DNA of 53,276 bases from a virus, in the IMG/VR virus record IMGVR_UViG_3300041809_003414, positions 1 to 53,276 of that record, one strand, 5' to 3'. The position numbers and the translations under genes were made by a program. The notes below the pieces were generated by a model. The model had not been told where the DNA came from, did not search any database, and saw only the letters and a program-made list of their open reading frames with translations. This document shows, piece after piece, positions 45,983 to 53,276 of the stretch. Within the stretch, counting starts at the first letter, position 1; each line of letters opens with the position of its first letter.

Positions 45983-47017
45983 TTAGAAAACTGGCTCTGG
46001 GGTTTCGTTGGGCAGCACGCGCAATTCTTCGTTGGGCGGCACGCGCTGGAAGAAGTTATCGATCAAGTTGGGATTGCCGTTCGAACGGCACAACGCGAAA
46101 TAAGAGCAGGGCCGTTGGTAGTTGAAGCAGAAAGCGGTGTTCTGGTAGAACACGCCGCGGCGCCGCGCATCCAGGAACGCCTGCGTCAGCTCCCACAGCT
46201 CACTGCGCAAAATATCGAAGCGGTCCCGCGAGAGATAGAGCATTTCCCGGTGAAGCATCGTGGGTTCGGAATACTTTTCCGCCAGCCGCTGCTGAAACTC
46301 TTCATCCGTCTCCGGCATGCGGCGCTTCGCCGATGACTTGCCGGTTTTCGATTTTGCCAGCAGTTCGGCCCGGCGGGCCTGAAATTCCTCCTCGGTCTCG
46401 CCTTTGCTCTGCTGCAGCTTCGCCTTCACCAGGACGTTGTAGAGAATCCCGGTGATGGGGATCCCCATAGTCTGCTCGACATAGTGGGCATAGATGGTGA
46501 TCTGGAAATCCGTCCAAAGGCGTTCCAGGTAATCGGAATCCATTTGTCCGGCGGTTTTGTGTTCGAGGACGAAGTAATTCTCGCCAATGCAAGCGATGCC
46601 ATCCACCTTGCCGGCAAGCTGGAAGCTACGTGAAGCCGCGCCGGTGGCTGGATTGACGATCGGACCTTCGAATGTCTTCTCCAGGGCGACAATCTCGAAT
46701 TCCTCGGTTGCATATCGCGCGGCATAAGCTTTCATCATTGCCGCGGCGAGGTGCCAGTCCCGAAGTTGGTTCTCATCCTGGACCCGATTGGGACAAAGAC
46801 GGTCGATCAAGGCCAGTACTTCGCCGAGATCGCGGCGCTGGTGCCAGGTCTGCAGACACTCGTGGATGAGAGTGCCGAAATGCAGGTTCCGGTCGCGCTG
46901 GATGGGAACGAGTTGCTGGAGGTATCGCCACTCAACCGCCTTGCGGCAGTTGCGGAACAGCGACCACATCGAATAAGTGGAGACCATCGGCCCAGGACTC
47001 ATCTCGCGCCTTGCCAT
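45983..47017 (-). CDS. PD-(D/E)XK nuclease, Cas4/RecB-like
   Basis: The 344-residue protein begins MARREMSPGPMVSTYSMWSL. It contains NCRKAVEWRYLQQL, LHFGTLIHECLQTWHQRR (near 45-65), AGKVDGIACIGENYFVLEHKTA (near 135-155: GKVDG then EHKT, the nuclease core) and WTDFQITIYAHYVEQ (near 170), then CFNYQRPCSYFALC near the C-terminus, a cysteine set that may bind an iron-sulfur cluster as in Cas4. It is next to the Sak4 gene, so it is the likely exonuclease partner. Confidence 0.85.
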   Translation of the reverse strand: MARREMSPGPMVSTYSMWSLFRNCRKAVEWRYLQQLVPIQRDRNLHFGTLIHECLQTWHQRRDLGEVLALIDRLCPNRVQDENQLRDWHLAAAMMKAYAARYATEEFEIVALEKTFEGPIVNPATGAASRSFQLAGKVDGIACIGENYFVLEHKTAGQMDSDYLERLWTDFQITIYAHYVEQTMGIPITGILYNVLVKAKLQQSKGETEEEFQARRAELLAKSKTGKSSAKRRMPETDEEFQQRLAEKYSEPTMLHREMLYLSRDRFDILRSELWELTQAFLDARRRGVFYQNTAFCFNYQRPCSYFALCRSNGNPNLIDNFFQRVPPNEELRVLPNETPEPVF

Positions 47018-47574
47018 GTCGGCGCCAGGCCAGACGTACGAAACGCGGCGCGCAACTCCTCCCGGAACTGATAGGTCCTCCGGCTGGTGAGGCCCAGTTT
47101 CGTGCCCATTTTGGCGGCGATTTCGCCAAAATCCGTCGTACGGATCTCCTCCGCTAGAAGCTGTACGCGGGGGGCCACCGACGAGAGCACCTTTTCGACG
47201 TCGATCCTGGCCTGAACCGCTTCGGCAGTCGAACTCCGGGAGGCATCGTCTAGGCCGGCGGAAGCTTCAACCGGGCATTCGGTTTCGTCGTCATCCGTCA
47301 GAGAGGCGATTCTGCCCATTCCCGACCGGATGGCCTTCAGTGCCAGCGATGCCGCCCGGTTACGGATCAAACGGTTGATGAAAGTCTTGTAGGTGCCCCG
47401 TTCGCGCTTGAATCCGCTAATGCGCTTCCAGTACTCCAGGAAGAGCTGCTGCTCAAGGTCTTGGCGATCGTCTTCCCGGAACAACTGACATGCCACCAAT
47501 TCGTGGACCCGGCACCGAATGCTGTCGAGCGCGTATCGATCCATTTCCGATAAATCACTGCTTGCTGTCCTCAT
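46999..47574 (-). CDS. sigma70-like factor
   Basis: The 191-residue protein has the two DNA/RNAP-binding parts of an ECF-type sigma factor: region 2-like DRQDLEQQLFLEYWKRISGF with TYKTFINRLIRNRAASLALK (about 35-80), a variable acidic linker (about 90-115), and region 4-like VQLLAEEIRTTDFGEIAAKMG with GLTSRRTYQFREELR (about 140-180). The start follows GGGAGGAAAC. A leader with competing hairpins precedes it. It may direct transcription of phage genes; target promoters are unproven. Confidence 0.7.
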   Translation of the reverse strand: MRTASSDLSEMDRYALDSIRCRVHELVACQLFREDDRQDLEQQLFLEYWKRISGFKRERGTYKTFINRLIRNRAASLALKAIRSGMGRIASLTDDDETECPVEASAGLDDASRSSTAEAVQARIDVEKVLSSVAPRVQLLAEEIRTTDFGEIAAKMGTKLGLTSRRTYQFREELRAAFRTSGLAPTWQGAR

Positions 47575-47590
47575 GTTTCCTCCCTGCCGG

Positions 47591-47695
47591 GGAGGTCCTT
47601 GTGGGGGCCAACAAAAAAGCGGAGGTCGGCGGGCGCGTGCTTTTCACGCGACTCACAAGGACCTCCGCTTCGCGGTCAGTCGTTTATCTGGTGTG
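47591..47695 (-). promoter_or_regulatory. leader with competing hairpins before sigma-like gene
   Basis: In the minus-strand RNA a segment GCGGAGGTC (47668-47660) can pair with GACCTCCGC (47627-47619), followed by a U6 run: a terminator. The overlapping GGAGGTCCTTGTG (47666-47654) can instead pair for 13 perfect bp with CACAAGGACCTCC (47603-47591). The latter also contains CCTCCC that can pair with the gene's GGGAGG ribosome site. A third hairpin CCGC-GAA-GCGG competes for the first strand. Such exclusive pairings are the layout of an attenuator or riboswitch-like control. Confidence 0.55.
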
Positions 47696-47713
47696 TCTCT
47701 GGCTGCAGCTACA

Positions 47714-48040
47714 TCATGTGCGCGACAGAGCCTCCAGCCGCATCCTGAAGGGGATGCCATGTTTCACTTCGAGGCGCCCGATGGTGCCGTCCCCGATGGT
47801 GGTCAGGGAGTTCAGCAACTCGGTGACCTGTGTTTTGGCGGCCAAGTCTTTCGACGCAGCCTCCGGCCGGGGATCGACCTCCCCTCCGAACTTGATTTCC
47901 CGCACCACGCGCGGCGCCGGATCGAATACCGGCTCGCCGCCACGGATCTCCAGCTCTTCAATCGAGCCGAAGTGAAGCTCCCGCATCAGGCGAAGCAGGC
48001 GCCGGCGCCCGTCCGAAAGCTCCGCGATCTGTGCCGGCAT
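47714..48040 (-). CDS. hypothetical phage protein
   Basis: The 108-residue protein starts MPAQIAELSDGRRRLLRLM. It has a helical N-terminus (about 5-25) followed by a beta-rich middle with ELEIRGGEPVFDPAPRVVREIKFGGE and a helix LAAKTQVTELLNSLTTIGDG, ending IGRLEVKHGIPFRMRLEAL. No family is recognised. It sits between the HTH regulator and the sigma-like gene and is two bases from the former, so it is likely transcribed with it. Confidence 0.6.
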   Translation of the reverse strand: MPAQIAELSDGRRRLLRLMRELHFGSIEELEIRGGEPVFDPAPRVVREIKFGGEVDPRPEAASKDLAAKTQVTELLNSLTTIGDGTIGRLEVKHGIPFRMRLEALSRT

Positions 48041-48042
48041 GA

Positions 48043-48291
48043 TTAACTCTCCTCCCTTCCGACAGCCTGCTCGGCCCGCATGAGTTTGCGTTCCGATTCA
48101 AGCGCCAACTGGACAGCGCGCGACTTCACCCGTCCGTTCTTTACCATCGAAACCAGAGCTTTGCTCTTACCGAGCCGCTTCGCCACCCTAGTAACCAACC
48201 CGAAGTAACGTGTGACCGGCCTTTTTATGATTTCTGTAATGCAATCTGAATTTTGCATGACCCGATTGAAGACCCTGAATTTACGTCCCAT
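48043..48291 (-). CDS. HTH regulator
   Basis: The start at 48291 (MGRKFRVFNRV, 82 residues) is chosen because the canonical promoter at 48317-48344 would put the RNA start near 48310; 48258 (MQNSDCIT) is the alternative. The core RYFGLVTRVAKRLGKSKALVSMVKNGRVKS is a helix-turn-helix of the Cro/C1 kind (VAKRLGKS then SMVKNG). The gene is divergent from a plus-strand protein, giving a classical lysis-lysogeny switch layout. Confidence 0.7.
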   Translation of the reverse strand: MGRKFRVFNRVMQNSDCITEIIKRPVTRYFGLVTRVAKRLGKSKALVSMVKNGRVKSRAVQLALESERKLMRAEQAVGREES

Positions 48292-48374
48292 TACTGCTGT
48301 TACTTCACAGTTACAAATTATAAGCATTGCAGTCATGATGTCAACCTGTTAAGCTGAACACTTGCATGCAAGTG
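48239..48374. promoter_or_regulatory. operator-like palindromes of divergent switch
   Basis: CACTTGCATGCAAGTG (48359-48374) is a perfect 16-bp palindrome with the ATG of the plus-strand gene inside it. ATGCAA (48239-48244) and TTGCAT (48253-48258) form an inverted repeat with an 8-bp gap. TTGCA again occurs at 48327, inside the promoter spacer. Three TTGCA-type sites flanking one promoter suggest the binding sites of a repressor encoded on either side. Confidence 0.5.
48317..48344 (-). promoter_or_regulatory. canonical sigma70 promoter for HTH regulator
   Basis: On the minus strand TTGACA (48344-48339) and TATAAT (48322-48317) are both perfect and 16 bp apart. The spacer contains TGCAA, which also appears in the palindromes around. 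It should drive the minus-strand regulator and the early genes behind it. Confidence 0.75.
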
Positions 48375-48758
48375 ATTGAACCAAAGATCAAAAATGTTGT
48401 CGTTCGAATTCCCGAAGATCTGCATCTGCCGCTTCGCAAAAAGATCGCCGAGATTGATACCTCTTTCCAGGAGGTAATTCTGGAGTCCCTGGTTGGCTGG
48501 CTGCACGCCAAAGATTCGACAGCGACCAAGAGGTGGCTTGCAAGAGTGGAGGAGACCGCCCGCAACGCCTGCCAGTTGCCGCCCGAGTTGACGCCCGAGA
48601 ACCGCGAGGAAAAGGAGTTTGTTGCTGGTCTGCTGGCGTTCCTTCGCGATCCCGAGCGACCCTTCCGGAAAGAGATGCAAAGGTTGCTGAAAAGCATGTT
48701 CGAGATCGATTCCAAGCGAGCCTTCCCGAATACGAAAAAAAGACGAAAAATCATTTGA
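48366..48758 (+). CDS. possible RHH-type regulator
   Basis: The 130-residue protein starts MQVIEPKIKNVVVRIPEDLHL. The N-terminal VVVRIPEDLHLPLRKKIAEIDTSFQEVILESLVGWL (about 11-46) matches the strand-helix-helix of a ribbon-helix-helix DNA-binding domain. The C-terminus is charged and helical, ending KKRRKII. Its ATG is inside a 16-bp palindrome, so autoregulation is likely. It is divergent from the HTH gene. The RHH call is tentative. Confidence 0.55.
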   Translation: MQVIEPKIKNVVVRIPEDLHLPLRKKIAEIDTSFQEVILESLVGWLHAKDSTATKRWLARVEETARNACQLPPELTPENREEKEFVAGLLAFLRDPERPFRKEMQRLLKSMFEIDSKRAFPNTKKRRKII

Positions 48759-49654: not shown

Positions 49655-51241
49655 CTACCCCTCCATCTCCGCGCCTCGGCAAATACGCCGAATGCCCGCG
49701 CTCCGGAAGCTGACGGTAACTTTGTTCGTTTTGCCGTCGTAGGCGACACACTCGATCAGGCCGTGGACGATTCGCGCCTGTTCGCGCGATGTTAGCGACT
49801 CCCAGACCGGACCGAATTCGACCAGGGCTGCCCGGAAGTCATCCTCGTTGACGGCCTTGGATTCGAGGCCAGTAAGTTCCTGCTGAATCTCGCTCAACCG
49901 CCGCTCCGTCTGGCCGATCCGTTCCTGAAGATCTGCCATGCGGTCCGTTACCATCTGGTCGCGGCGGCCCACCAAGGGGACCAGTTTGCGCAGTTCAGCG
50001 CCCATTCCCGCTAGTTCCTTTTGCGTAAGCTGGCGCTCAGAGGTGAGGTCCGTGACCTGTCCGCGCCTCTGCTCCTCGGCCTTCGCAATCGCGCGGGCCG
50101 CGATTTGGGGATCGGAGCCGATCCGCCGGATCTGCTGCACAACCGCCGACTCGATTGCAGGCGCGGAGACCGACTTGGTCTCGCAGTTTTCCCATCCCCT
50201 TTGTTGGGCCTGCTCGCAAACGTAATATCGGTAGCGCCGCGAGCCCTTCGCCGTGTAGGTGTGAACCATTCCCGCATCACACGATGCGCACCGCAGGAGT
50301 CCTTTCAGGAGAGCACCGTAATTATTGCGAACCTCGACTCCGCCGCTGCGCCCGTTGCTCTGCAGGATCTTTTGCACCTTCTCCCAGGTCTCCGCGGCAA
50401 CGATGGCCTCGTGCTCACCGCCATACATCTGGCCCTTGTATTCCACCCTCCCGGTGTAAATTGGGTTCGTGAGCACCCGGTACAGCAGCCCCTTCGTGAA
50501 TGGCTTCCCGCCCTCGGTTTCGCCCCTTTTCGTAATCCACTGCTTGGTGCGCCAACCGCGGCGGTCGATTTCACGGACGACGGGCAGCATAGCGCGGTAA
50601 TCAAGGTAGAGGTTGTATATCGCCCTGACTTGGTGGGCTTCGTCCCCATTGATGGCAAGGCGGCCACCGCGAGGATCGATGTCATAGCCCAGCACGGGGT
50701 GTCCGCCAGTCCACTTGCCCTTTCGCCTGGCCGCCGACATCTTATCGCGGGTACGCTCGGCGATGATCTCGCGTTCGAACTGCGCGAAGGAGAGGAGGAT
50801 ATTGAGGGTGAGGCGCCCGAGCGAGTTAGTGGTGTTGAACTGCTGCGTGACGGATACGAAGCTGACATTATTCTTTTCGAATGTCTCAACGATGCGAGCG
50901 AAGTCGATCAATGACCGGCTCAGGCGATCCACCTTGTAGACCACCACGCAGTCGACCCCACCGGCGCGAATCTCCGTTAGGAGCCGCTGCAGCGCCGGCC
51001 GCTCCAAATTGCCGCCGCTGAATCCACCGTCGTCGTAGTGCTCGGGCAGGGTGACGAGGCCTTCCCCGCGCTGGCTAAGGATGTAGGCCTCCCCGGCTTC
51101 GCGCTGCGCATCCAGGGAATTGAAGTCCTGATCCAGACCCTCGTCGGTGGACTTTCGGGTGTAGATGGCGCAGCGGACTGTCTTGGCGGCGGCCGGCGCC
51201 GGCGCGTTGGTCGCGACCACTGCATTTCTACCGTTGCGCAA
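49655..51241 (-). CDS. large serine recombinase (integrase)
   Basis: The 528-residue protein has the resolvase N-terminus (CAIYTRKSTDEG with the catalytic Ser at about 31, then YDDGGFSGGNLERPAL, VDCVVVYKVDRLSRSL, SFAQFEREIIAERTRDK), the recombinase domain (about 190-300) and a zinc ribbon with CASCDAGMVH ... YYVCEQAQQRGWENCETK (about 320-365), then a coiled coil. The TTG start has AGGAGG six bases upstream. It integrates and excises the prophage, so the attachment sites should be near the ends of this module. Confidence 0.92.
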   Translation of the reverse strand: MRNGRNAVVATNAPAPAAAKTVRCAIYTRKSTDEGLDQDFNSLDAQREAGEAYILSQRGEGLVTLPEHYDDGGFSGGNLERPALQRLLTEIRAGGVDCVVVYKVDRLSRSLIDFARIVETFEKNNVSFVSVTQQFNTTNSLGRLTLNILLSFAQFEREIIAERTRDKMSAARRKGKWTGGHPVLGYDIDPRGGRLAINGDEAHQVRAIYNLYLDYRAMLPVVREIDRRGWRTKQWITKRGETEGGKPFTKGLLYRVLTNPIYTGRVEYKGQMYGGEHEAIVAAETWEKVQKILQSNGRSGGVEVRNNYGALLKGLLRCASCDAGMVHTYTAKGSRRYRYYVCEQAQQRGWENCETKSVSAPAIESAVVQQIRRIGSDPQIAARAIAKAEEQRRGQVTDLTSERQLTQKELAGMGAELRKLVPLVGRRDQMVTDRMADLQERIGQTERRLSEIQQELTGLESKAVNEDDFRAALVEFGPVWESLTSREQARIVHGLIECVAYDGKTNKVTVSFRSAGIRRICRGAEMEG

Positions 51242-52229: not shown

Positions 52230-52310
52230 TCCTGTCCCCGCCGGGCCGCTTCCGTGTATTGAGATCGGAGGGAGATCAGAATTCTGCCGCGCTGTGCGGT
52301 GTCGAGTGAT

Positions 52311-53276
52311 ATGCTGAGCGGGTTGACGTTCGAATTCTACAGGTTCCGATTTCATTTCCGCTCCGCAGGAGCGCTGCATTTCCCTCCTTATAAATCCGGT
52401 AATATCGTGCGCGGCGCGTTCGGAGATCTATTTCGCAAAATCGTTTGCATGCCAAGCTGTCATGACGCCAAGACATGCGAGGTTCGCGCAACCTGCCCGT
52501 ACGCTCGCGTTTTTGAGCCGCAGGCGGCGCGGGGTGAAGGCCCAAGTGGGCTGGTGGACTGGCCGCGGCCGTTCGTGTTCCGCGCCGCTCACTTGGACGG
52601 GCGCACGATTCTGAATGGCGAAGCGTTCCACTTCGATGCCCATATCTTCGACGTGCGAGACCCGGCCCTGCCGTATTTCGTGCTTGCGTTTGCTCAATTA
52701 GCGCGGGACGGGCTAGGGCCGGGCAGAGGGCGCGCGGACCTCACCGCCGTGGATCAACTGGACCTGAATGGGGCAACTGCAGCGCGCGTTTTCAACGGCG
52801 AGCGCTTCCAAACGGCCAGTCTGTCAGGCCCCAGCGCCGTCGATCTCAGCGAGGCGACAGAGCACATAGGCAACATTAGAGTGCAATTCCTAACCCCGAC
52901 AGAACTGAAGAGCGGGCGCCAGGTGGCAGATCGTCCGGAATTCGGAATTCTGTTCGGTCGTTTGCGAGACCGAATCAGCGCGCTGCGGGCGCTATACGGC
53001 ACCGGACCTTTGGAGATCGACTTTCGCGCCCTGGGTGAGCGTGCGGCAAGGGTCCAGATGTTGCGGTGCGAGTTGAAGCGGATGGAAGTGGACCGGCGCT
53101 CTTCCAGGACGCAACAGCGCCATCCGCTGGGCGGCTTTGTGGGCGAGGCGGAGTACGAGGGAGATCTGGGTGAGTTCCTGCCCTATTTGTGGCTGGGACA
53201 GTGGGTGGGGGTCGGAAGGCAAACGGTCTGGGGTAAGGGGCATTTGGAGATCATCACGCCCATGGATGCGTCTTGA
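52311..53276 (+). CDS. cas6: CRISPR pre-crRNA endoribonuclease Cas6
   Basis: The product is 321 residues with ATG at 52311 (GTG at 52299 gives 325) and ends at the last base of the window. The C-terminal GEAEYEGDLGEFLPYLWLGQ followed by VGVGRQTVWGKGHLEI is the Cas6 glycine-rich loop region. The N-terminal part has cysteines typical of this RAMP subgroup (CMPSCHDAKTC, ATCPYARVFEP). Cas6 cuts pre-crRNA in type I and III systems. No other cas gene or array is visible here, so the rest of the locus lies beyond the window, or the prophage separated it. Confidence 0.85.
   Translation: MLSGLTFEFYRFRFHFRSAGALHFPPYKSGNIVRGAFGDLFRKIVCMPSCHDAKTCEVRATCPYARVFEPQAARGEGPSGLVDWPRPFVFRAAHLDGRTILNGEAFHFDAHIFDVRDPALPYFVLAFAQLARDGLGPGRGRADLTAVDQLDLNGATAARVFNGERFQTASLSGPSAVDLSEATEHIGNIRVQFLTPTELKSGRQVADRPEFGILFGRLRDRISALRALYGTGPLEIDFRALGERAARVQMLRCELKRMEVDRRSSRTQQRHPLGGFVGEAEYEGDLGEFLPYLWLGQWVGVGRQTVWGKGHLEIITPMDAS

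Follow-up and report, generated by a model that had tools for sequence, protein, structure and literature searches.

Riboswitch-type platforms, with their sequestor and anti-sequestor, and attenuators consist of three segments, one of them able to pair with either of two partners, and they carry a terminator, an SD-sequestering hairpin or both. In phage lambda, the tR1 region is a terminator-like site between cro and cII. Two phage RNAs are also close to the leader described here. In the c4 RNA of P1 and P7, antisense hairpin and target are arranged in tandem on a single transcript, by a ribosome site (PMC5320573; c4 antisense RNA is also described in PMC12197685), and the lambda cIII mRNA is credited with alternative structures in PMC4166951, which cites Altuvia et al. 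1989.

The leader that we analyzed lies in a window of 53,276 bases, the whole of an IMG/VR virus record, and it shares features with each of these systems. As with c4 (RF01695), a structured phage RNA heads a regulatory gene, and one of its segments is complementary to the downstream ribosome-site region. Unlike c4, it has no Rfam similarity, it precedes a sigma factor gene instead of an antirepressor gene, and its complementary segment covers the anti-SD and not the SD. Like cIII, at least as that article summarizes it, the leader has two exclusive conformations, predicted in this phage and some relatives to differ in ribosome site access; cIII, however, is there a matter of one gene, one phage and temperature dependence, whereas we find a conserved multi-element leader with an optional terminator. 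An optional terminator, together with the lack of a recognizable ligand-binding domain, also sets it apart from riboswitch platforms. Finally, it resembles tR1 in that a terminator-like site separates the first early genes from the operon that follows, but here the conserved part is a translation-level pairing. We propose, with a probability of roughly 0.6, that this is a cis-acting bistable leader, OFF by default, through which a family of temperate phages gates the ECF-like sigma gene of its early operon.

Results

The Leader Lies between ORF108 and an ECF-Like Sigma Gene

The leader and both genes that flank it are on the minus strand of the window, and the landmarks of the locus are as follows.

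46999..47574, minus strand: the controlled gene in our reading, encoding a 191-aa ECF-like sigma factor (profile matches and predicted fold)
47714..48040, minus strand: ORF108, the conserved gene 5' of the leader, which overlaps the sigma gene in leader-less relatives
48317..48344, minus strand: sigma70-type promoter TTGACA-16-TATAAT (consensus match 12/12)

The 191-aa product is matched by NCBIfam TIGR02937 (E=7.8e-8), a model that also matches 28 of 30 family members, by PHROG_1740 (E=1.4e-7) and, below the cut-off, by Pfam Sigma70_r2 (E=1.8e-4). Its AlphaFold model consists of two all-helical domains, and the PDB entries that it matches best are ECF sigma factors (E about 0.01). A weak match to Wolbachia phage WO proteins (22-26% identity) probably reflects general sigma-factor similarity. 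ORF108, conserved in more than 100 loci, is predicted to fold into two alpha-beta-beta repeats; it shows a weak similarity to DUF2292 (4/36 members, below cut-off), and a PDB search with the predicted fold, in which a clue to the trigger of the leader was sought, returned no match.

The promoter upstream of ORF108, the sole site found by the sigma70 consensus within 46900-48500, is likely, judging from its sequence, to be the start of the operon, which continues after the sigma gene with genes for an exonuclease, a Sak4 annealing protein, a single-strand binding protein, an ERCC4 nuclease and a RecD2-like protein. The sequence-only reading from which this work departed had pointed out that a promoter downstream of the terminator would make the leader irrelevant; with the sigma70 consensus, no such promoter was found between leader and gene, either in this phage or in the 23 leaders described below. 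At the end of the record, an ORF with a Pfam Cas6 domain (E=2.6e-16; 52299-53276, plus strand) has a serine integrase gene (49655-51241) and a DUF2924 gene as neighbors, and the phage may adjoin a host CRISPR locus.

The Leader Contains Mutually Exclusive Pairings

On the minus-strand RNA, the leader is composed of these elements.

47572..47684, minus strand: leader RNA, from P1 to the sigma start codon (covariance model R1, cmsearch 70.2 bits, E=4.6e-14, this leader being one of the 23 sequences used to build R1)
47665..47675, minus strand: P1 hairpin CCGC-GAA-GCGG (95.7% of cells paired over 23 leaders)
47654..47666, minus strand: el1, GGAGGTCCTTGTG, the partner common to el2 and el3, with an SD-like GGAGG at its start
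47634..47650, minus strand: hairpin CGCGTG-AAAAG-CACGCG within the el1:el2 loop, from folding, at the position of P3 in relatives
47617..47627, minus strand: el2, GACCTCCGCTT, which pairs with 47660-47670
47613..47618, minus strand: U6 tract after el2, intrinsic-terminator-like by its sequence
47591..47603, minus strand: el3, CACAAGGACCTCC, the 13-bp complement of el1, whose 3' part is the anti-SD
47590..47595, minus strand: anti-SD strand CCTCCC (fold and coevolution)
47579..47584, minus strand: SD strand GGGAGG (element 4), pairing with the anti-SD across a 5-nt loop

All four pairings that had been read from the sequence are present where they were placed. The first, a terminator stem with U6, turned out to be longer than the 9 bp first given, with 11 perfect pairs between AAGCGGAGGTC (47670-47660) and GACCTCCGCTT (47627-47617), which T6 (47618-47613) follows or overlaps; el2, as the partner of el1, reads GACCTCCGC(TT), then U6. 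A GC-rich stem thus runs directly into a U-tract, as in an intrinsic terminator, and its absence from the list of a simple terminator scan is due to the long loop. The 13-bp alternative, el1:el3, is perfect as described (13/13 pairs between GGAGGTCCTTGTG at 47666-47654 and CACAAGGACCTCC at 47603-47591), and among 1000 dinucleotide shuffles of the leader none formed a perfect 13-bp stem and one formed a stem of at least 11 bp. The CCTCCC-GGGAGG hairpin is likewise there, as is P1 (47675-47665), which has GCGG in common with el1 and is the sole upstream competitor of el1:el2. Further copies of el1 were sought across the whole record, where only the leader's own two arms were found.

The Leader Defines an RNA Family

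A direct search of viral contigs with the sigma protein of this phage was unsuccessful. Since the gene is too diverged for such a search, loci were collected through the adjacent exonuclease gene and, after this anchoring, also with a covariance model trained on 23 non-redundant leaders. The leader was found in 58 loci, corresponding to these 23 leaders, in hosts from Acidobacteriota, Thermodesulfobacteriota, Myxococcota, Armatimonadota and others. Nearly always, ORF108 flanks it on one side and an ECF-like sigma gene on the other; the gene on its 3' side encodes an ECF-like sigma factor in all loci but one. Sense-strand leaders score 70-144 bits (70.2 in this phage), with four lower-scoring members (L178, 55.4; L218, 44.8; L220, 60.9; L110, 27.6), and non-leader loci reach at most 25 bits, with the exception of a leader truncated at a contig end (L053, 31 bits); the model matches the opposite strand poorly. 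When genomes were searched with the RNA model only and no protein (194 from a single order, 247 from a single phylum and 28 from a single class), eight matches beyond the loci already fetched were obtained, all eight with ORF108 5' and the sigma gene 3', two of which equal known bit scores and may be re-finds of known genomes.

None of the 4227 Rfam models matched at its gathering score, and RF01695 was absent from the matches at E values up to 10 for the leader of this phage or for L120. In the collection of sequenced isolated phages, no leader-type sigma protein, ORF108 or leader was found, and in plasmids no ORF108-leader-sigma module. The module is present twice in the chromosome of Desulfosarcina alkanivorans, about 91 kb apart, in separate prophage-like modules; the two leaders, L126 and L133, differ in type (140 and 92 bits). 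Two loci (L061 and L222) have ORF108 about 1 kb upstream, and the leader still abuts the sigma gene. Another, L178 (3840-3980), has an insertion of about 90 nt between el3 and the anti-SD, by which the two would be kept apart.

The Competing Helices Coevolve

The sequence-only reading had made its case depend on conservation or covariation of the pairings in relatives, and the pairings proved to be both conserved and coevolving. In an alignment-free test, the duplex energy of each leader's el1 with every other leader's el3 was calculated for all combinations of the 23 leaders. Cognate el1:el3 pairs have an average advantage of 3.4 kcal/mol over non-cognate ones (double-centred z=-6.9; 0/10,000 permutations as good), and coevolution is also found for el1:el2 (z=-5.7; 0/10,000) and for anti-SD:SD (z=-3.3; 22/10,000), counts that are not strict probabilities because the leaders are related sequences. 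The results hold with one leader per clade (n=17), and two controls, in which el1 was combined with the SD strand or with el3 in reverse, are flat. The second test, which is of a different kind and agrees with the first, used a sequence-only alignment of the 23 leaders with slid helices as a comparison: el1:el3 is paired in 91.7% of cells versus at most 64% when slid, with both sides changed at 5 pairs, and el1:el2 taken together with P3 and the SD hairpin is paired in 85.0% versus at most 54.5%, with 9 both-side changes.

Individual substitutions illustrate these figures. In P1, pair 12-20 changes from G-C to A-U in three leaders and pair 13-19 from C-G to U-A in one, and in P3 both sides are changed at 4/6 pairs. 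L097 has GUUGAGGG with CCCUCAAC in place of the GUUGUGGG and CCCAC of other leaders, GGUGUUG pairs with CAACACC in L169, and el1:el3 complementarity extends up to about 20 bp. The distant L218, found by the model alone, combines GUUGGUGUC with GACGCCAAC; a core el1:el3 pair has gone from G-C to U-A, and the changed pair is mismatched in its el1:el2 helix.

Two rival explanations meet their evidence here. If the inverted repeats were a DNA-level element, that is, operator or recombination sites, the long perfect repeats in the DNA would be accounted for, and palindrome arrays do occur upstream in other branches of this sigma family. We give this next to no credence: pair 32-99 of the el1:el2 helix is U.G in 19/23 leaders, and an inverted repeat in DNA would not preserve such a pair, so that the constraint acts on RNA. 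There are, moreover, wobble changes on one strand, the position is fixed relative to the start codon and overlaps the SD, and the opposite strand matches poorly. The U.G pairs and the strand asymmetry are the grounds on which we reject the operator reading.

In the other rival, a leader peptide would be translated from the GGAGG of el1, starting at a GUG or UUG a few nt on, and its ribosome would open the hairpins or couple into the sigma gene. GGAGG followed by UUG or GUG is indeed kept in most leaders, and the GTG frame of this phage extends 17 nt beyond the sigma ATG. Nevertheless, no frame is open through the SD family-wide (in L015, L093, L185 and others it is closed or el1 has no start), a 1-nt indel in the P3 loop separates L102 from L103, and conservation tracks base pairs. 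A conserved reading frame of the kind found in erm-type translational attenuators was sought across the leaders and none was found, and we consider such translational attenuation very improbable.

That the leader is a genuine and conserved structured RNA whose helices compete is hardly in doubt. It almost certainly represents a family not in Rfam and so far undescribed, and a real switch for sigma production.

Folding Predicts Two States

All energies given here were computed at 37 C for the leader by itself, with neither ribosomes nor the kinetics of transcription taken into account. The leader of this phage has an MFE of -58.8 kcal/mol (z=-3.6), a value that none of the shuffles matches. The conformational flips anticipated from the sequence appear when the growing transcript is folded progressively: el1:el2 forms while el2 emerges, el1:el3 replaces it once el3 is complete and the SD still unmade (3' end near 47591), and el1:el2 returns, the SD hairpin now closed, after synthesis of the SD (3' end near 47579). 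In a constrained calculation, state A (el1:el2) has -42.1 and state B (el1:el3) -39.9, a difference of 2.2 kcal/mol, although the true gap is larger because the constraint also penalizes certain state A pairs and unconstrained A reaches -51.8.

In this constrained model, the SD is fully closed in state A, in keeping with the idea that CCTCCC-GGGAGG hides it, and about 58% open in state B. That the 13-bp pairing would then free the SD had also been suggested, and here the picture is divided. SD access differs between the states in this phage, L061, L097, L126 and L190, but not clearly in the others, and the modeled B state keeps the SD hairpin closed in many relatives (L017, L102, L120, L185). 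SD release by el1:el3 is thus predicted for this leader and some relatives, not for all, so the members of the family must differ in their particulars or depend on an additional factor; this is the weakest part of the mechanism. Furthermore, state A is favored by more than 5 kcal/mol in many relatives, which calls for a strong trigger.

The Leader Replaces a Gene Overlap

We compared the loci that have both ORF108 and the sigma gene, 55 with and 53 without the leader. A gap separates the two genes in 55/55 leader loci (74-308 nt, one of 1086), and the sigma ORF overlaps ORF108 in 53/53 leader-less loci, at a distance of -3 or less, typically as ATGA; because the longest ORF was used to set the sigma start, the overlap is smaller than distances well below -7 imply, and the gaps may be understated. 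Although close kinship among many of the loci means that these figures cannot be read as separate events, not a single exception occurs. Leader-less relatives presumably make the sigma factor by translational coupling with ORF108, and the perfect split indicates that the leader takes the place of this coupling and that translation is the conserved level of control.

A U-tract follows el2 in only 8/23 leaders (this phage, L037, L061, L097, L156, L170, L185 and L190) and is missing in the other 15. Control by both termination and translation had been proposed from the sequence; the regulatory leader with exclusive, covarying pairings has stood, and termination is not general. Control of translation would therefore be the common core and termination a lineage add-on, present in this phage, and we think it probable that the leader acts mainly on translation of the sigma gene. 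By the same token, it is quite improbable that the leader is a plain intrinsic terminator like lambda tR1, placed where the first early genes give way to the sigma-recombination genes and opened by phage antitermination, with el1:el3 as a by-product of repeats. The 11-bp GC stem with U6 in this phage and the location in the operon, behind a small regulator gene and a strong promoter, would suit such a terminator, but coevolution of el1:el3 and of the SD hairpin extends over the whole set in spite of the scarcity of U-tracts, and in L218 el1:el3 covaries at a position that is mismatched in el1:el2.

L142 (4850-5000) has lost the sigma gene together with the anti-SD/SD hairpin; P1, el1, el2, the U-tract and the 5' part of el3 are kept, and the exonuclease gene directly follows the shortened leader with an ordinary ribosome site. 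On the ORF108 tree, the leader needs four changes and is compatible with a single origin, and the exonuclease tree forces at least seven. These trees suggest that ORF108 and the leader travel as a unit, exchanged against the remaining operon; this phage has an exonuclease of the leader-less clade and an ORF108 of the leader clade (with L170).

In loci without ORF108, repeated palindromes (GGTGAAAATTCACC, GGCGAATTTTCGCC and GCGAAATTTCGC) often stand ahead of the sigma gene; they are seen in L022 (3620-4050), L024, L025 (2990-3410), L095, L141 and L147 and are phage-specific with a similar half-site kept. They look like operators of a promoter of the gene's own, a third mode of control for the sigma gene.

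Discussion

From the sequence, its pairings and their covariation, the synteny and the gap/overlap split, we infer the OFF/ON direction, the terminator activity and the trigger as follows. Segment el1 would pick either el2, just 3' of it, in a hairpin that in this phage has a U-tract, or el3, beside the ribosome-binding site of the sigma gene. Because el1 meets el2 first during transcription, el1:el2 would be the kinetic default; with it formed and the SD closed by the anti-SD, little sigma factor would be made and some transcripts would end at the U-tract. An antiterminator role is not open to the 13-bp pairing, since el3 is made only past the termination point and el1:el3 is thus unable by itself to prevent termination. 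A putative trigger must rather block or undo el1:el2, for instance by holding P1 through the GCGG that P1 has in common with el1. Polymerase would then read through and el1 would take el3, in one event, and in this phage el1:el3 would withdraw the anti-SD and leave the SD open. For this phage we lean slightly towards el1:el2 with anti-SD:SD as the OFF form and el1:el3 as the ON form.

The strongest rival is a c4-like trans-acting antisense RNA, which we regard as unlikely. An el1-el2 small RNA, released by the terminator or by processing, would pair in trans with el3 in the sigma mRNA, whether of its own phage or of one that superinfects, and alter access to the ribosome site. The c4 RNA itself is freed by RNase P and works in trans. 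The tandem layout recalls c4 of P1/P7, where antisense hairpin and target are serial on one transcript (PMC5320573), el1:el3 complementarity is about 20 bp and coevolving, and the U-tract of some members would free the small RNA. Most members, however, have no U-tract, no c4 match was found with Rfam, el1 is not confined to a loop, and cognate pairing is just a few kcal above non-cognate, hence weak phage specificity. Further, el1 has the anti-SD as its partner instead of the SD, so pairing would tend to activate, whereas c4 represses. We retain the bistable cis-acting leader. A dual cis and trans riboregulator, in which the released el1-el2 hairpin opens the SD of another sigma mRNA, is a doubtful candidate; if it did act in trans, the amount of early transcript would decide whether the phage sigma factor is made.

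This work adds an undescribed, well-supported family of structured RNAs to the temperate phages of poorly studied phyla, and to our knowledge almost nothing has been reported on how phages of those phyla set their lytic or lysogenic programme. The switch is testable in cultured hosts such as D. alkanivorans. The alternation of overlap and leader amounts to a natural experiment in which an RNA switch has been substituted for translational coupling, and the gated ECF-like sigma factor is a candidate regulator of the phage programme.
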